DNA of 48,539 nucleotides. Source: Planctomycetota bacterium (lineage in GTDB: Bacteria > Planctomycetota > Planctomycetia > Gemmatales > Gemmataceae). Under the pieces are notes generated by a model. The model worked only from the letters and a program-made list of their open reading frames with translations. It had not been told where the DNA came from and did no database searches. Below, in pieces: positions 9,614 to 22,548 of this stretch. The stretch lies in the NCBI GenBank assembly GCA_016873095.1, contig VGYC01000031.1:1-48539 (forward strand), read 5' to 3'. Positions within the stretch are counted from its first letter, which is position 1, and each line of letters starts with the position of its first letter. Position numbers and translations under genes: made by a program.

Positions 9614-9629
9614 CTCCCAGCTGCTGAAG

Positions 9630-9703
9630 TTGCGGGAGCGGGACTCGAACCCGCGTCGTAGGGCTTATGAGACCCTGCTGGTACCTCTCCAGTCCACCCC
9701 GCA
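9630..9703 (-). tRNA. tRNA-Met (CAT)
   Basis: The minus strand gives a 74-nt cloverleaf: acceptor TGCGGGG with TCCCGCA, anticodon stem AGGGT/GCCCT around CTCATAA (anticodon CAT), and T arm GCGGG-TTCGAGT-CCCGC. Discriminator is A; CCA is not encoded. The 1-72 pair is T-A, which argues against an initiator tRNA. The D arm pairs only as CTGG/CCAG, two bases later than usual. A tRNA-Ile2 with modified CAT cannot be excluded. Confidence 0.88.
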
Positions 9704-9717
9704 AGAAACTCGACGAC

Positions 9718-9789
9718 TGATCCCGGATGGATTCGAACCATCGCTTTCCTGGATGTGAGCCAGGCTCCCGGCCACTGGACCACGGGACC
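9718..9789 (-). tRNA. tRNA-Val (CAC)
   Basis: A 72-nt cloverleaf on the minus strand: acceptor GGTCCCG/CGGGATC, anticodon stem CCTGG/CCAGG around CTCACAT (anticodon CAC), T arm GATGG-TTCGAAT-CCATC, discriminator A. CCA is not encoded. Confidence 0.92.
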
Positions 9790-9791
9790 AT

Positions 9792-9808
9792 CTGAACACT
9801 GAAAACTG
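9792..9808. repeat. Single copy of the GAACACTGAAAACTG repeat between tRNA genes
   Basis: CTGAACACTGAAAACTG lies between tRNA-Ser and tRNA-Val. It matches the inverted-orientation core seen upstream of nuoN and between the two mcsA genes. Confidence 0.8.
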
Positions 9809-9816
9809 TGATGCAG

Positions 9817-9903
9817 CGGAAGGGACAGGACTCGAACCTGCAAGGGCTTGCGCCTCGCCCGGTTAGCAACCGGGTGCCATCGTGCCAGTTGGCTCGCCCT
9901 TCC
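9817..9903 (-). tRNA. tRNA-Ser (GCT)
   Basis: An 87-nt minus-strand tRNA with the long variable arm typical of class II. Acceptor GGAAGGG/CCCTTCC; anticodon stem CCCGG/CCGGG around TTGCTAA (anticodon GCT); T arm GCAGG-TTCGAGT-CCTGT; discriminator G, as expected for serine. Confidence 0.94.
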
Positions 9904-9928
9904 AATCAGGAAACAGTCACTCCGAAAG

Positions 9929-10000
9929 CTGTCCCGGTAGGATTCGAACCTACACCCGTCTGGTTAACGGCCAGCCGCACCACCGTTGTGCTACGGGACA
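9929..10000 (-). tRNA. tRNA-Asn (GTT) with C at position 33
   Basis: A 72-nt minus-strand cloverleaf: acceptor TGTCCCG/CGGGACA, D arm GCAC/GTGC, anticodon arm CTGG-CCGTTAA-CCAG (anticodon GTT), T arm GTAGG-TTCGAAT-CCTAC, discriminator G as expected for asparagine. The base before the anticodon is C where nearly all tRNAs have U33. Confidence 0.9.
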
Positions 10001-10012
10001 ATCAGTCAACAG

Positions 10013-10086
10013 TATCCTCGGCGGGATTCGAACCCGCGATCTCCGGCTTGAAAGGCCGGCGGCCACTCCGCAGGCACCACGAGGAC
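10013..10086 (-). tRNA. tRNA-Glu (TTC)
   Basis: A 74-nt minus-strand tRNA: acceptor GTCCTCG/CGAGGAT (first pair G-T), anticodon stem CCGGC/GCCGG around CTTTCAA (anticodon TTC), T arm GCGGG-TTCGAAT-CCCGC, discriminator A. The D arm pairs poorly in the standard register. It is the promoter-proximal member of the five-tRNA array. Confidence 0.9.
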
Positions 10087-14795: not shown

Positions 14796-15293
14796 GTGAA
14801 GTGTCAGTCCTGTGCCAAGGCCGCCACCGTGCACCTGACCGATTTTGTCAACGGTCACAAGAAGGAGCTGCACCTGTGCGAGGACTGCGCCGAAAAGCAG
14901 CAGCTCCTCAAGCAGCAGGAAGTAAACCTGTCGTCAATCTTGCAAACGGTGATCGGCCAGCACATCGGTCAGTTGACGGATGAGCTGGGGCGATTGACCT
15001 GCCCGGCGTGCGGCGTAAAGTATATGGAGTTCAAGGCGGAAGGACGGCTGGGCTGCCCGCACGATTATCAGGTTTTCCAGACTGCCCTGGAGCCGCTGCT
15101 GCAGCGGATTCACCGGGCCGTCCGCCACGTCGGCAAGAAGCCCCGGCACGGGCGAATCCACGCCGCCCATCTGAAAGAGATCGTGGAACTGCGACGCCAA
15201 TTGCGAACCGCGGTCGAGACCGAAGCTTACGAAGAAGCCGCTCGCATCCGCGATTTATTGCGAATAAAGGAAGCCACGGATGAACCTGGATAG
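14796..15293 (+). CDS. mcsA: McsA-like zinc protein with UVR motif, copy 2
   Basis: A second McsA-like protein (165 residues) with the same layout as its neighbour: MKCQSC, CEDC, CPACGVKYMEF, GRLGCPHDYQVF (Asp again in place of the last Cys), and a C-terminal UVR motif around residues 130-160 (IVELRRQLRTAVETEAYEEA). The start is GTG 14796, with GGAG six bases upstream. It overlaps mcsB by 14 bp, so these two are surely co-translated. The linker between the zinc ribbons differs from copy 1, so the pair is an old duplication rather than a recent one. The two may form a heteromeric activator, but that is inference. Confidence 0.9.
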   Translation: MKCQSCAKAATVHLTDFVNGHKKELHLCEDCAEKQQLLKQQEVNLSSILQTVIGQHIGQLTDELGRLTCPACGVKYMEFKAEGRLGCPHDYQVFQTALEPLLQRIHRAVRHVGKKPRHGRIHAAHLKEIVELRRQLRTAVETEAYEEAARIRDLLRIKEATDEPG

Positions 15294-16347
15294 CATGACC
15301 CAAGCCAGCGGCGAATGGCTGCGCGGCACCGGGCCAGAGGCGGACATCGTCATTTCCAGTCGCATCCGCCTGGCTCGCAACCTCGCCGCCTTCCCGTTCA
15401 CCAACCGCGCCAGCGCCCATCAACGCAACGAGATCGAAGCACTGTTGCGCGAGCGCATCCTGCGCCTGGAAGTGCAGCCGCCTTTCGACTACGTCGGTCT
15501 GAGCGGGCTCACGCCTCTGGACCGGCAGTTTCTGGTCGAGCGGCAACTCATCAGCCGCGAACTGGCCAACTCCGAAGGACCGCGCGGCGTCGCCCTCGGC
15601 GCCCAGGAAACCATGAGCCTCATGATCAACGAGGAAGACCACGTGCGCATTCAGGTCATGCGCAGCGGCTTCTCTCTTGACGAGGCCTGGCAGGACATCG
15701 ACCGCCTCGACGACCTGCTCGAGCAGCGCGTCAGCTACGCCTTCAGCGAGGAATTCGGCTACCTGACCGCCTGTCCCACCAACGTCGGCACGGGCATGCG
15801 CGCCAGCGTCATGCTGCACCTGCCCGCGCTTGTACTCACCAAGGAGATCGAGAAAGTCTTTCGCGCGTTGCAAAAGATCAACCTTGCGGTCCGCGGCCTT
15901 TACGGCGAGGGCAGCCGCGCCTCCGGCGACTTCTACCAGATCTCGAACCAGGTCACGCTCGGCAAGACGGAAGCCGCCGTCTTGAAGGAGATTCGCGAGG
16001 TTATCCCCACCATCATCGGCTATGAGCGCAAGGCTCGGGCCACGCTCACCAAGGAGAGCCGGCAAGCGCTGCACGACCGCGTCAGCCGCGCTTTCGGCAC
16101 CCTTCGCTCCGCGACCATGATGACTTCCGAGGAGACGATGGAATTGCTGTCCGCGGTCCGCCTCGGCATCAACCTCGGCTTGCTTGAGGACATCGGCATC
16201 CCGATCATCAACGAGCTGTTCATCCAGACCCAGCCGGCCCACCTGCAAAAGCTCATGGGCGCCCCCCTCGACGGCGAGGAACGCAACTCTGCCCGCGCCC
16301 GCTACTTGCGCAGCCGCCTGCGTGAAAACGGCTCGGCGCTGAACTAG
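15280..16347 (+). CDS. mcsB: Protein-arginine kinase McsB
   Basis: McsB phosphorylates arginine side chains in proteins and belongs to the guanido (creatine/arginine) kinase fold. Family features: ADIVISSRIRLARNL at about residues 21-35, MINEEDHVRIQVMR at 115-128, the active-site Cys in CPTNVGTGMRASVMLHLP (C165), and SNQVTLGKTE. The length of 355 residues equals the family norm. ATG 15280 overlaps the upstream mcsA copy by 14 bp. No ctsR, clpC or clpP lies in the window, so the usual stress operon of Firmicutes is not preserved here. Confidence 0.95.
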   Translation: MNLDSMTQASGEWLRGTGPEADIVISSRIRLARNLAAFPFTNRASAHQRNEIEALLRERILRLEVQPPFDYVGLSGLTPLDRQFLVERQLISRELANSEGPRGVALGAQETMSLMINEEDHVRIQVMRSGFSLDEAWQDIDRLDDLLEQRVSYAFSEEFGYLTACPTNVGTGMRASVMLHLPALVLTKEIEKVFRALQKINLAVRGLYGEGSRASGDFYQISNQVTLGKTEAAVLKEIREVIPTIIGYERKARATLTKESRQALHDRVSRAFGTLRSATMMTSEETMELLSAVRLGINLGLLEDIGIPIINELFIQTQPAHLQKLMGAPLDGEERNSARARYLRSRLRENGSALN

Positions 16348-18316: not shown

Positions 18317-18691
18317 ATGCGCATCTCGATGAGTCTTGTCTGCGTGCTACTGGGCTCAGGTTGTGGGCGGTCACTGCCCCCGGCATCCGAGCCCGATGTC
18401 GCGCGCAAGTCACTGGAAACGGCGCTTGTCGCCTGGAAAAAGGGAGACACTCCCGAATCCCTGCAGCAAGCTCAGCCGCCAATACATTTCAACGAGCCCA
18501 GATGGCAGACAGGATGTCGCCTCGAAAGCTACAAGGTGCTCGCTCCGGAACCTTTTGGACGTGAAGTCAAGATGAGAGTCATGCTTTCCTACAAGACGAG
18601 TGACGGCGAGGCTCATGAGCACGAGACCGCCTATACCGTGGACACGGGCACGCGCATTGTCATCGGGCCTGCGGACTTCCTGGGGGATTGA
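18317..18691 (+). CDS. Small lipoprotein at the head of the selenoprotein operon
   Basis: A 124-residue protein beginning MRISMSLVCVLLGSGCGRS: a short signal with a plausible lipobox (LGSGC), so it is probably a lipoprotein anchored at Cys16. The mature part is soluble, with one further Cys (TGCRLESYKVL) and a beta-rich end (EVKMRVMLSYKTSDGEAHEH). No family was recognised. Its TGA stop (18689-18691) overlaps the ATG of the first deiodinase-like gene, so the two are coupled. It might deliver or receive electrons or ions for the selenoproteins, but the sequence does not say so. Confidence 0.7.
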   Translation: MRISMSLVCVLLGSGCGRSLPPASEPDVARKSLETALVAWKKGDTPESLQQAQPPIHFNEPRWQTGCRLESYKVLAPEPFGREVKMRVMLSYKTSDGEAHEHETAYTVDTGTRIVIGPADFLGD

Positions 18692-19875
18692 TGATGGTTC
18701 GGACTGGTCTTCTGCTAGCAGCCTGCACCATGTCTCTGCCGGTCACGCGAACGGCAGCCGGTGAGCCTGATTCTCTGCCGGCCGTCGTTTCAGCAACCGT
18801 GCGCCATGCCCCCACCTGGCTCACCGACGGCCTGGTCTGGGTCTGTGAACGAGAAGCCGTGCATCAACTCCTGCATGTTGTTTTGCACAGAAACGCCGGC
18901 AAGGACGGCGGCACGCGCTGGTATCGGCCAAGCCAGACGCGCTACACCTGGGAACGGCTGGCCAGACAACTGAGAGCAAGCGTCGATGAGCCGATTACCC
19001 GCGAGCAGTTCACGGGTCCTTCGGCGTGGTTCGATCTCCTCGATCGCGACCGCGACGGCAAGCTCACGCCGCGCGATCTGGACTGGTCGGAGGGCACCAG
19101 GCTTGGAGGCGCCAGCCAGCTCGCCAAGTCGCTGTTCTTCGCCATCGACGTCAATCGCGACGGCAAGGTCACGGCCGCGGAATGGCAAGCGTACATGAAG
19201 AAGCTGGGCCACGGCCGCGAAGAACTCGCCATCGACGATCTCATCCCGATCTTCATGAGCGAGCAGGTAAAGCCCGCCGTCGCCAGGACCAAGAATGGGC
19301 AGGTGGACCCGACCCTGCTCAGGGCGTTCATGGACGGCGACATTGGTTCCTGGTTTGAAGGGCCGGGTCTGGAAAGGCGAGCGCCCGATTTCACGCTCAA
19401 AACAGCCGATGGCAAATCGGCCATCACGCTGTCCGATTCGTTCGGCACAAAGCCGGTGGTGCTGATCTTCGGCAGCTTCACCTGACCGCCCTACCGATCC
19501 CAGTTTGGGGTCCTGGAGGACATCTATCGTCGGCACAGGGACAAGGTCGATTTCGTGGCCGTCTACGTCCGCGAGGCACATCCCAGCGACGGCTGGTGCC
19601 GGCGGAAGGATGCCATCAACAGCAAGATCGTCCAGCCGCGTAGCTACGGCGAACGCGCCGGCATCGCCAAGGCTTGCTGCACCGCGATGAAGGTGACCAT
19701 GCCGATGGTGGTGGACGCGATGGACGATCGCGTGGGGCATGCCTACAGCGGCATGCCGGATCGGCTTTATATCATCGACAAATGGGGCAAGGTGGCGTAC
19801 AAGGGCGGCCGTGGACCATTTGGCTTCAAGCCGGCCGAGATGGAGCAGTCATTGCTCATGATGCAGCTGGAATAA
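18691..19875 (+). CDS. EF-hand deiodinase-like selenoprotein (TGA 19483 = Sec265)
   Basis: Read through the in-frame TGA at 19483-19485, this is a 394-residue exported protein. Residues 1-24 form a signal peptide. Two canonical EF-hand loops follow: DRDRDGKLTPRD (118-129) and DVNRDGKVTAAE (153-164). Residues 230-394 form a thioredoxin-fold domain very like vertebrate iodothyronine deiodinases: VVLIFGSFT-U-PPYR (Dio: NFGSCT-U-PPF), AVYVREAHPSDGW with the catalytic-region His297 (Dio: EEAHxxDGW), then MPMVVDAMDDRVGHAYSGMP, DRLYIID and VAYKGGRGPFGF (Dio: LYKGKSGPW). Without readthrough the protein would end just before its catalytic residue. The start is ATG 18691 (or 18694) after a GGGGGA stretch; the lipoprotein stop overlaps it. 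The substrate is unknown; dehalogenation or peroxide reduction are possible. Confidence 0.9.
19483..19512 (+). promoter_or_regulatory. Candidate bacterial SECIS element at Sec265 codon
   Basis: The TGA (19483-19485) is followed 10 bases later by GATCCC (19496-19501), loop AGTTT, and GGGGTC (19507-19512). The 6-bp stem includes one T-G pair, and CC/GG pairs can extend it after a small bulge. The loop begins 17 nt after the TGA and has G in its second position, within the published bSECIS pattern (loop about 16-37 nt downstream, G among the first two loop bases). Confidence 0.7.
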
Positions 19876-19932: not shown

Positions 19933-22548
19933 ATGAGACGCATCGCGCTTGCTTGCTTGGGCCTGGCTCTGCTCGCGACTGCCACGCCGGCCGCCGAACC
20001 GCCGGACTGGACAAGGTACGCTCAGCTTCCCAAGCTGCTCAAGCGCGCCGGCGACTGGGCGCTCGATCGTGAATTCACCCACATGCTCTTTTCCATGGCC
20101 AACACAGCCAGCATGATGGGCGGCCAGGGAGGCTGGTGGAAACCGGGCCAATCACGCTACGACTGGCACTGGCTGGCCGGCCGCCATGGCACCGACGACG
20201 AGGGCAAGATCAGCCGCGAACAGTTCACCGGCAGCGCCAGCCTTTTCAATCGCCTTGACCGCGATCGCGACGGCGTCATCACCGCCGCCGACCTCGACTG
20301 GTCAAGCAAGTCCGAATACCTCAAGCAAGGTCAGCAAAGCAACATGCTCTTCTACTTGCTTGACGCCAACAGCAATGGCCGCATCTCGAAAGAGGAATGG
20401 GTAAACGTCTTCGACCGGCTGGCCAAGGACAAAGGCTACATCTCGCAGGACGATGTCCGCGAGTTGTTTCGCAAGCCGACTGCGCTAGCGAAGGGCTCCA
20501 AAGCGGCCAAGAAAGAAGGTCATGCGGGGCCGTCGATGAAAGTGTTGCTCTATGGTCTACTCACGGGCGAACTGGGCTCAATGAACGAAGGCCCGCGCCT
20601 CAACCAGCCAGCGCCGGACTTCAAGCTGCCCACGCACGACGGCAAGCAGACCTACACGCTGTCGCAGTATCGGGGCAAGAAGCCGGTCGTGCTGATCTTC
20701 GGCAGCTTCACCTGAGGACCATTTCGATCCCAGTTTGGGGTCCTGGAAGACATGCACAATCGCTACAAGGACAAGGTGCAGTTCCTCGCCGTCTATGTTC
20801 GCGAGGCCCATCCCTCCGACGGCTGGGCATCGCCTGGCAACGAAAAGGTCGGCATCGCCTTTCTCCAGCCCAGGACGCTTGCCGAGCGTATCGGCGTGGC
20901 CCAGAAATGCTCCGCGGCTCTGGAGATCAACATGCCCCTGCTGGTCGATGACGTGAACGATCGCGTCGGCCATGCCTATAGCGGCATGCCGGACCGGCTG
21001 TACATCATCGACCGCGCTGGCAAGGTGGCCTACCAGGGTGGTCGGGGGCCCTTCGGCTTCAAGCCCGGCGAGATGGAACAAGCGGTCGCGATGTTGCTCC
21101 TCGATCAGGAATCGACGACGCCGCTGCCGCAGGGCCGTTTGCCGGCGCTGCAGAACAGCCAGGCCTGGAAACGATTGCCGGCCACGAACGACGAGTCCGC
21201 CATGTTGCCGGCCTGGGCACGCATGCTCGCCGGAGTCATGCCGAAGACCACGGCGCGGATGATCGAGCTGGACGCCATGCACCGCACTGGCACGCGACTC
21301 GACGCGAAGCTCCGCGCCATGATGCGCTGGTCGGCCGCCGATGAAAACCAGTGCGCCGCCGGCCGGGCCTTCGCTGAACGCGATCTGCGCGACGCGGGAA
21401 TGAGTGACAGCGAGTTGCACGCCTTCACCTCCGGCGGCGTGCGCACGCGCAGTGCCAGGGAAGGAGCGGCGCTCGCCTTCGCGCGCAAGATGATGCGCGC
21501 CGCGCATGCGGTTACCGACGCGGAGGTCAAGTTCCTCAATGACCAGTTCGGCGAGAAGCAGCTGGTAGCCATGGTGGCGCTGCTGGCGCACGCCAGCTTC
21601 CAGGACCGCATGTTGCTGGCGCTGGACGCGCCGGCGGAAAAGTCGCCCCCGTTGCTGGCGAAGTTCGCGAGGCCCAAGCGGACCGACAAGAAGTCCCTTG
21701 ACAAGAAGTCCCTTGACAAGACGTCCCTTGACAAGAAGTCGCTTGACAAGAAGTCCCTTGACAAGAAGTCGCTTGACAAGAAGTCGCTTGACAAGAAGTC
21801 GCTTGACAAGAAAGCGCTTGACAAGAAAGCGAAGTCGCAGGCGTCGTCCGGTCCGGTCGTGGCCCTGCCCCCCAGGGCCACGACTCGCCCGCCCGGCGGC
21901 GTCTCGGTGGTCGACCCGCAATGGCGGGCGCTCGGCGTCATGGACCTGCGCAGCAAGATGGATGCGCAAAAATCGCGCCCGCCGCGCATTCGCGTCCCGA
22001 CCAACGATGAGCTGCGCAAGGCCGTGCCCGGGGAGCATCGCATGGCCAAGGGCTCCAAGGTTGTCTGGAGCCAGGTGTGCTACGGCTACCAGCCGGCGCT
22101 GACGGACGCCTGGTTCAGTAGCGTGAGCACCTTCCGCGAAGAGGCCAAGCTCGACCGTGTGCTGCAGACCAGCATGTTCTGGGTGGTGACGCGGGCCTTG
22201 CAGTGCTTCTACTGAATGGGCCACTGTGAAATGAATCTCGCGGTCGCGGGACTCAAGAAAGACGAGATCGCTGACCGGACCGAACGGCTGGCCAGCGGCG
22301 ACTGGTCGAGCTTCACGCCGGCGGAACAAGCGGCATTCGTGTTCGCGCGCAAGCAGGCCGGCAACCCTGCAAGCATAACCGCCGCCGACCTGCAAGCGCT
22401 GGAGAAGCATTTCGGCAAGGCCGGCGCGTGGCAAGTGGTGTGGTGGTCGGCGCGTTGCCACTACATGACGCGCGTGGCCGACGCTTTCCAGCTGCCGCTG
22501 GAGAGCGAGAACGTCTTCATGGAGCGGAAAAAAGAGAAGCGCGAATAG
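19933..22548 (+). CDS. Double-Sec protein: EF-hand, deiodinase-like and AhpD-like domains (TGA 20713 = Sec261, TGA 22213 = Sec761)
   Basis: Two in-frame TGA codons split one 871-residue protein. Order: signal peptide (1-21); EF-hand loops DRDRDGVITAAD (109-120) and DANSNGRISKEE (144-155); deiodinase-like domain (about 225-395) with FGSFT-U-GPFR (Sec261) and REAHPSDGW (His292); a first AhpD/carboxymuconolactone decarboxylase-like helical domain (about 420-565) whose active-site motif is degenerate (NQCAAGRAFAE, one Cys only); nine KSLDK-type repeats (587-631); and a second AhpD-like domain with ALQC-F-Y-U-M-G-H-C-E (Cys758, Sec761, His764). AhpD relatives use CxxC there as the peroxidase/disulfide pair. 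The frame is unbroken on both sides of each TGA. ATG 19933 follows AGGAG..GAGG. Likely a periplasmic redox enzyme; substrate unknown. Confidence 0.88.
20713..20742 (+). promoter_or_regulatory. Candidate bacterial SECIS element at Sec261 codon
   Basis: The same hairpin as in the upstream paralogue: GATCCC (20726-20731), loop AGTTT, GGGGTC (20737-20742), at the same 10-base distance from the TGA. A 23-nt stretch covering the hairpin is identical in both genes although the codons between TGA and hairpin differ (CCGCCCTACC against GGACCATTTC). Confidence 0.72.
21691..21825 (+). repeat. Nine tandem 15-bp repeats encoding (K/T)(S/A)LDK
   Basis: Nine in-frame 15-bp units, consensus AAGTCSCTTGACAAG, encode a Lys/Asp-rich linker between the two AhpD-like domains of the double-Sec protein. 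Units differ mainly at the third base of the Ser codon (TCC/TCG); unit 3 begins ACG (Thr) and unit 9 has GCG (Ala). The unit number is likely to vary by slippage. Confidence 0.95.
22213..22255 (+). promoter_or_regulatory. Candidate bacterial SECIS element at Sec761 codon
   Basis: After the TGA (22213-22215), TCTCGC (22236-22241) pairs with GCGGGA (22246-22251) around loop GGTC, and TGA/TCA (22232-22234 with 22253-22255) extend the stem across an A-C mismatch. The loop begins 27 nt after the TGA and starts with GG. The sequence is unrelated to the other two hairpins, so the match to the bSECIS pattern is independent. Confidence 0.62.

Follow-up and report, generated by a model that had tools for sequence, protein, structure and literature searches.

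Two tandem planctomycete genes probably encode exported deiodinase-like selenoproteins, one of them a double-selenocysteine fusion with two AhpD domains that together resemble Sestrin

The stretch of DNA analysed here, from a bacterium of the Gemmataceae (Planctomycetota) (the window: all 48,539 nucleotides of contig VGYC01000031.1) contains a TGA codon at the position where deiodinases carry their catalytic selenocysteine (Sec), raising the question of whether this codon is read through and what the resulting enzyme would do. The reading that we favour, with a probability of roughly two in three, is that two tandem genes encode exported selenoproteins, of which the second would be a double-Sec fusion of EF-hands, a deiodinase-like (DIO) domain and a Sestrin-like pair of AhpD-like domains, working as a redox relay.

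An earlier note on this DNA had described gene 1 as a deiodinase-like selenoprotein with upstream EF-hands, and this description holds. The frame is open (18691-19872) across a single in-frame TGA at residue 265 and closes at TAA 19873-19875, and the protein contains the FGSFT-U-PP motif as well as the three downstream motifs that the note had listed (EAHPSDGW, DRLYIID and YKGGRGPF). Pfam T4_deiodinase (PF00837) matches it at 105.4 bits (gathering cut-off 27), together with two EF-hand stretches ahead of the DIO domain. The structure model (pLDDT 73.1, pTM 0.73) has mouse Dio3 as its best fold match (E 6.8e-9), followed by Dio2, ResA and AhpE-type proteins; Dio3 is also the top PDB match of the DIO domain by sequence, with Dio2 the next closest solved relative. 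In the comparison with deiodinases that had been proposed, the TGA aligns with the catalytic residue of mouse Dio3 and Dio2, which is Cys in place of Sec in the constructs compared. What does not stand is the view that the architecture is unusual, because NCBIfam NF038285 (deiodinase_rel, a hypothetical equivalog) covers EF-hands and DIO domain in one model and exceeds its cut-off in 100 of the 297 genomes of the class; gene 1 scores 397.8 bits against it (curated cut-off 250), in a match spanning both parts.

The note placed gene 1 correctly and missed the fusion gene adjacent to it. Gene 2 starts 57 bases past the end of gene 1 and is its EF-hand/DIO paralogue, scoring 103.4 bits against PF00837 (cut-off 27) and 456.7 bits against NF038285 (cut-off 250); in a profile search of the genome the PF00837 match lies at 20596-21081, with one in-frame TGA inside. 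Beyond it follow two AhpD-like domains separated by a DKKSL-rich tandem-repeat linker (Table 1). After the second TGA, at 22213, a further 110 in-frame codons lead to TAG 22546-22548. The context of this codon is CFYU-MGH; fused relatives read CFYU-MGH or CNYC-MGH there, and at the same position AhpD-like relatives further off show different CxYU or CxYC motifs. Gene 2 seems to hold two selenium sites because its DIO part is also fused to a second, Sestrin-resembling redox enzyme, and it probably encodes one protein carrying two selenocysteines. Ordinary annotation is expected to break it at each TGA. The signal-peptide-like N-termini of both proteins would fit export and the EF-hands.

Table 1 Features of the two tandem genes (positions in the window).
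Feature	Position	Strand	Description
Gene 1	18691..19875	+	394 residues, Sec at 265 (well supported); signal-peptide-like N-terminus (by eye), two EF-hand loops, DIO domain
Gene 1 EF-hand loop 1	19042..19077	+	residues 118-129; Pfam EF-hand match
Gene 1 EF-hand loop 2	19147..19182	+	residues 153-164; Pfam EF-hand match
Gene 1 Sec265 codon	19483..19485	+	TGA in FGSFTUPP; aligns with catalytic Cys of mouse Dio3/Dio2 constructs
Gene 1 SECIS-like hairpin core	19496..19512	+	apical loop GUU, 17 bases past UGA
Gene 2	19933..22548	+	871 residues, probable Sec at 261 and 761; Pfam, NCBIfam and model evidence
Gene 2 domain order	19933..22548	+	signal-peptide-like N-terminus (by eye), two EF-hand loops, DIO-like domain, linker, two AhpD/CMD-like domains
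Gene 2 EF-hand loop 1	20257..20292	+	residues 109-120; Pfam
Gene 2 EF-hand loop 2	20362..20397	+	residues 144-155; Pfam
Gene 2 Sec261 codon	20713..20715	+	TGA in FGSFTUGP; column where DIO relatives have Sec or Cys
Gene 2 hairpin core after Sec261 codon	20726..20742	+	17 bases identical to gene 1 core
Gene 2 first AhpD/CMD-like domain	21136..21648	+	about residues 402-572; active-site motif degenerate
Gene 2 tandem repeat	21685..21827	+	15-base unit, 9.5 copies, codes DKKSL linker; in none of five aligned relatives
Gene 2 second AhpD/CMD-like domain	21910..22503	+	about residues 660-857; model, Sestrin2 alignment, relatives
Gene 2 CFYU motif with Sec761	22204..22215	+	TGA 22213-22215; active site of last AhpD-like domain
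Gene 2 hairpin core after Sec761 codon	22236..22251	+	GGUC loop, 26 bases past UGA

The nature of the AhpD-like pair was assessed from the gene 2 model (pLDDT 76.2, pTM 0.53), in which the relative placement of domains is not reliable. Residues 405-857 of this predicted structure align to Sestrin2 (Z 25.2, rmsd 3.6, 296 aligned residues, 12% identity); fold matches otherwise cover residues 217-393 and 402-572, and Sestrin2 alone extends to 857. The first AhpD-like domain has further fold matches of its own at Z 13-15, among them the debrominase Bmp8 (Z 13.5, rmsd 2.8, 156 aligned), and the last has no single-domain fold match among the matches listed. By sequence profile against solved structures, PA0269 is the closest match of the first domain (E 2.4e-8) and Bmp8 that of the last (E 4.3e-5). 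The CFYU of gene 2 fits the AhpD-like pattern described in PMC3141380, a helical hairpin that bears CxxC or CxxU and has Tyr or His between the two active residues, the hairpin being seen in the model only. The AhpD relay is incomplete, with His at U+3 and Thr at -12, where the same source places a His four residues past the second Cys and a Glu 12 ahead of the first. Gene 2 shares the CFYU AhpD-like active site with NF041238 (CFYUT AhpD-related) and TIGR01926 (peroxidase-related), yet falls far under both cut-offs (22.9 of 175 and 33 of 81.8 bits, respectively), and also below that of PF02627, and its His spacing is off that of AhpD by one. It has the Sestrin trait of two AhpD-like domains in a single chain (as judged from the model), as do the Sestrin-like fused AhpD dimers described in bacteria (PMC11429811). 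We do not class it as a Sestrin, because its last domain retains a CxxU active site at the place that an acidic hinge takes in Sestrins (PMC11429811), and it is in addition fused to a DIO-like domain.

The likeliest function, argued by analogy, is that of an exported thiol/selenol redox enzyme in which the AhpD-like site would re-reduce the DIO-like site. We posit that SelB, together with the hairpins described below, inserts Sec at the UGAs, and that both proteins would be exported (signal peptides judged by eye) and stabilised by calcium bound to their EF-hands. The DIO Sec would attack an oxidised or halogenated substrate and would then be re-reduced by the AhpD-like CxxU, much as AhpD serves AhpC; the gene 1 protein may rely on a separate partner, perhaps the gene 2 module acting in trans. 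That DIO-like and AhpD-like parts are fused itself points to the CxxU site as the likely reductant of the DIO Sec. Deiodinases have been described as carrying a peroxiredoxin motif (PMC11592359), AhpD as the adaptor that restores AhpC (PMC3141380), and the Sec-to-Cys protein of Dio2 as not helped by Trx or Grx (PMC11592359). What reduces the deiodinase Sec is a vexed question in the vertebrate enzymes, and the fusion offers a concrete guess at it within one polypeptide. In its strictest form, which we hold only tentatively, gene 2 would be a self-contained exported relay of two seleniums, in which the DIO Sec dehalogenates a substrate (or reduces a peroxide) and the CxxU of the same chain recharges it. 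If so, both halves of an AhpC/AhpD-type pair would be joined in one polypeptide, and gene 2 would, to our knowledge, be the first relative of the deiodinases to bring its own reductase.

The same double selenoprotein could instead act outside the cytoplasm to dehalogenate aromatic compounds reductively, with the DIO Sec and the AhpD-like CxxU both taking halogen, or the second re-reducing the first. The solved proteins closest to the DIO domain, mouse Dio3 and Dio2, are reductive deiodinases, with which the window genes share the thioredoxin fold, FGSxT-Sec, EAHPSDGW and GGRGP, and the EAHPSDGW motif is intact, including the Glu and His of the deiodinase proton relay as assigned in PMC11592359. 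Bmp8 is a debrominase and the best solved profile match of the last AhpD-like domain, although its fold match is to the first domain and it is only one of several weak AhpD-family matches. The second active-site His of deiodinases (Dio2 His182, within QHR) is replaced by Pro in both genes, which read QPR, and in place of the N-terminal transmembrane region of the vertebrate enzymes both have EF-hands and a signal-like N-terminus. The authors of the Sargasso Sea survey also expected another, possibly redox, role for such proteins in bacteria (PMC1088965). We regard this alternative as unlikely and retain the thiol/selenol redox enzyme as the preferred function.

Whether this genome can insert Sec depends on its decoding machinery. 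The earlier note had called for a search of selA, selB, selC and selD, and had named a lack of selB/selC as speaking against its proposal. Of the four, selA, selB and selD are present over their cut-offs: selA (571.4 bits) and selB (381.4 bits) are adjacent on contig C81, and selD (286.6 bits) lies at C117:11091-12014. The selD match sits within an open frame of 1439 residues and may therefore be part of a fusion. An intact selC (tRNA-Sec) was not found in the draft assembly (548 contigs, 95.5% complete), which yielded two fragments only: a 5' piece of the first 40 bases, including the anticodon loop, at C6:70507-70546, followed by unrelated DNA within the contig, and a 17-base match to the 3' end at C242:9229-9245 in unrelated surroundings (selC-piece loci L153, L155 and L191). 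Rfam gave 17 tRNA-Sec matches in this genome; ARAGORN called no tRNA-Sec in the first eight that were scanned, and it assigned those three that exceed the cut-off to tRNA-Leu and tRNA-Ser. The match lying at the end of a contig (L016, 44.8 bits) has a GCT anticodon, from which we take it to be tRNA-Ser, and is called tRNA by Rfam. A tRNA-Sec pattern search returned one match. In many relatives, tRNA-Sec is about 94 bases long and scores 64-80 bits, and ARAGORN called tRNA-SeC in all nine loci tested.

The selC gene is either intact in an assembly gap or interrupted. If it is interrupted, genes 1 and 2 would be genuine selenoprotein genes that are silent or truncated in this genome, as the break after 40 bases on C6, the 3' end on C242 and the failure to find a second copy in the assembly might suggest. 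We consider this rather improbable, since an intact copy may sit in a gap of a 548-contig draft, and since three TGA-type DIO genes persist alongside intact selA and selB. The third of these DIO genes (C58:25961-26422, L024) has its in-frame TGA in GSLTUTP and is without an EF-hand motif; in the PF00837 search of the genome, all three loci found had one in-frame TGA each. The selC site may be an insertion hot spot or an interrupted gene. Neither Pfam nor PHROGs gave family support for a mobile element in the DNA beside the 3' piece, and so such an element is a guess.

Across an order-level set of 102 genomes, PF00837 occurs in 56, of which 26 have the TGA form. As selA is over its cut-off in 24 of these 26 and likewise in 24 of the 30 genomes whose DIO genes lack TGA, it separates the two groups weakly; tRNA-Sec matches at E 1e-11 or better, counted by eye, are found in 22 of 26 and 25 of 30, respectively. 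The two TGA genomes without selA over the cut-off are G031 (69% complete) and G040 (95% complete). G040 has a double-TGA fusion gene (L097) with neither a selA match nor a strong tRNA-Sec match, which counts against the Sec reading.

Conservation around the codons favours the Sec reading. At the TGA column, all 68 scored DIO sites, those of genes 1 and 2 included, have U (33) or C (35). This count leaves out matches below 65 bits, L128 (whose aligned stretch is another thioredoxin-like part) and L148 (whose frame is broken at the site). Between genes 1 and 2, the segment after the DIO TGA has a dN of 0.30 and a dS of 0.86; after the second TGA, the values are 0.32 and 1.14 for gene 2 against L138, and 0.087 and 0.41 for the close pair L097/L121. 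Over all comparisons with finite dS, dN/dS ranges from about 0.09 to 0.44, dS frequently approaching saturation, and two control segments ahead of the second TGA give 0.33-0.39. Judged from these comparisons, the coding regions past both kinds of TGA are under purifying selection. The earlier note had named a genuine stop at this codon in homologues, together with a lack of downstream conservation, as speaking against its proposal; neither was seen, and the reading of TGA 19483 as Sec is well supported by sequence comparison.

Each of the three TGAs is followed by a hairpin resembling a bacterial SECIS, lying shortly past the UGA and having a small apical loop with a G, the loop feature given in PMC1088965. 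In 24 Sec sequences of the DIO site, seven pairs at bases 11-27 past the TGA were 93.5% paired, with 28 double-change cells; slid partners used as controls gave 33-51% and at most six such cells, and the same positions in 35 Cys homologues gave 30.6% and ten. The 24 were chosen out of 33 by CAG at bases 16-18 past the TGA, a choice that by itself favours the 5' side in two of these seven pairs. EF-hand motifs are missing from the other nine Sec sites, of which seven form a hairpin whose loop is at a distance of 21 bases; the last two deviate. At the AhpD (CMD) site, with pairs defined from gene 2's own hairpin, all six pairs form in 29 of 30 distinct Sec sites (177 of 180 pairs overall), compared with 72 of 108 pairs in 18 Cys sites; the exceptions are the Sec site of L108 (three of six pairs) and the Cys site of L091 (all six). 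Random synonymous recoding matched the observed stability of the three window hairpins in 31, 42 and 40 of 2000 trials. A free search for bSECIS-like hairpins separated Sec from Cys DIO genes poorly (medians -12.2 and -10.8 kcal/mol; 33 and 35 sites), and only fixed-position pairing separated them well; at the CMD site, the free search gave medians of -12.1 (Sec, 10 sites) and -7.6 kcal/mol (Cys, 8 sites). Taken together, the comparison shows all three TGAs to lie in conserved coding sequence, in Sec/Cys columns, with a conserved hairpin after each.

These data bear on the suggestion that translation truly ends at the TGAs, the frames beyond them being remnants or genes with independent starts. 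Downstream open reading frames with starts of their own do exist (for example, 19555-19875 and 22216-22548), and an intact selC was not recovered from the draft genome. The U or C at every scored site with conservation continuing through it, the dN well under dS downstream, the Cys homologues that run as continuous proteins across the same junctions, and the fixed-position hairpins retained in Sec forms and mostly missing from Cys forms make this very improbable. That this lineage reads TGA as a standard amino acid, which the read-through at three places might suggest, can be rejected as the least probable of all, since the adjacent upstream frame (18317-18691) stops at TGA, the three read-through codons are confined to redox motifs with Cys in relatives, and the genome contains Sec machinery.

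We also examined how the two-Sec fusion is distributed among relatives. EF-hand-like loops, identified by motif within 200 residues ahead of the site, are found in 47 of the 68 DIO frames. An AhpD-like module is fused in 16 of the 68 and nearby in eight more; among the 47 EF-bearing frames, the figures are 15 and eight. In three of the eight nearby cases, the neighbour is the fused gene itself, and the sixteenth fused frame (L106) is cut off where its contig ends. The module was absent within the fetched stretch from all 18 Sec DIO frames without an EF motif. Written as DIO site/AhpD site, the 16 fused frames, gene 2 included, comprise five Sec/Sec, three Cys/Sec and eight Cys/Cys, and Sec in the DIO site with Cys in the AhpD site occurs in none of them. 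This series amounts to a natural experiment on why each site keeps Sec. Two planctomycete records, L196 and the 5'-truncated L198, are double-TGA fusions with exactly two TGA codons in frame each; L196 is also tandem, with the single-Sec gene first and the fusion second. G040 has the same tandem order, but its first copy has Cys. In L193, the two are not fused, and an AhpD-like Sec gene directly precedes the DIO gene. Unfused AhpD-like frames with CFYU or CYYU occur near DIO genes in L097 (9844-11398), L121 (9704-11180), L106 (3016-4441) and L108 (5934-7212). A DIO-like domain with an in-frame TGA was also seen outside planctomycetes, at about position 3845 of L206, a Bryobacteraceae MAG that we take to be acidobacterial; no EF-hand motif was found in its frame.

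Set against known systems, EF-hands with a DIO domain alone constitute the known planctomycete family NF038285, and it is the double-Sec fusion that is new. Both genes are far over the cut-off of that family, which mostly has Cys where the window genes have Sec: 29 of 30 loci that were read have Cys at the site (GNFTC), several being Cys/Cys fusions, and among the over-cut-off matches listed, 19 have one TGA and most have no internal stop. Gene 2 adds to it the two AhpD-like domains and the second Sec. The bacterial deiodinase-like selenoproteins from the Sargasso Sea (PMC1088965) have in common with the window genes PF00837, Sec at the catalytic position and a bacterial SECIS. That family is listed with one Sec in the review PMC13188914, whose main text does not contain the terms 'EF-hand' and 'Planctomycet'; compared with it, the window adds EF-hands, a tandem copy, the fusion and the second Sec. 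Deiodinase-like, CMD-like and CFYU AhpD-related selenoproteins have been described as separate families, as have multi-Sec fusions, one with an AhpD domain (PMC1088965, PMC13188914, PMC2398784, PMC9312934), and among the bacterial families consulted in the review, few contain several Sec (PMC13188914). The arsenite methyltransferase/AhpD selenoprotein NF041537, likened here by its description in PMC13188914, is also a multi-Sec fusion (three Sec) whose AhpD domain has a CxxU, though its partner domain is not deiodinase-like. Judged by titles and the openings of abstracts, in a search mostly outside subscription journals, we found no earlier report of the EF-hand/DIO/AhpD-pair fusion or of its two Sec.

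Elsewhere in the window, a gene at 15280-16347 has an ATP:guanido phosphotransferase catalytic domain and is presumably of the protein arginine kinase type, and a cluster of five tRNA genes (Met, Val, Ser, Asn and Glu) lies on the minus strand at 9629-10086.
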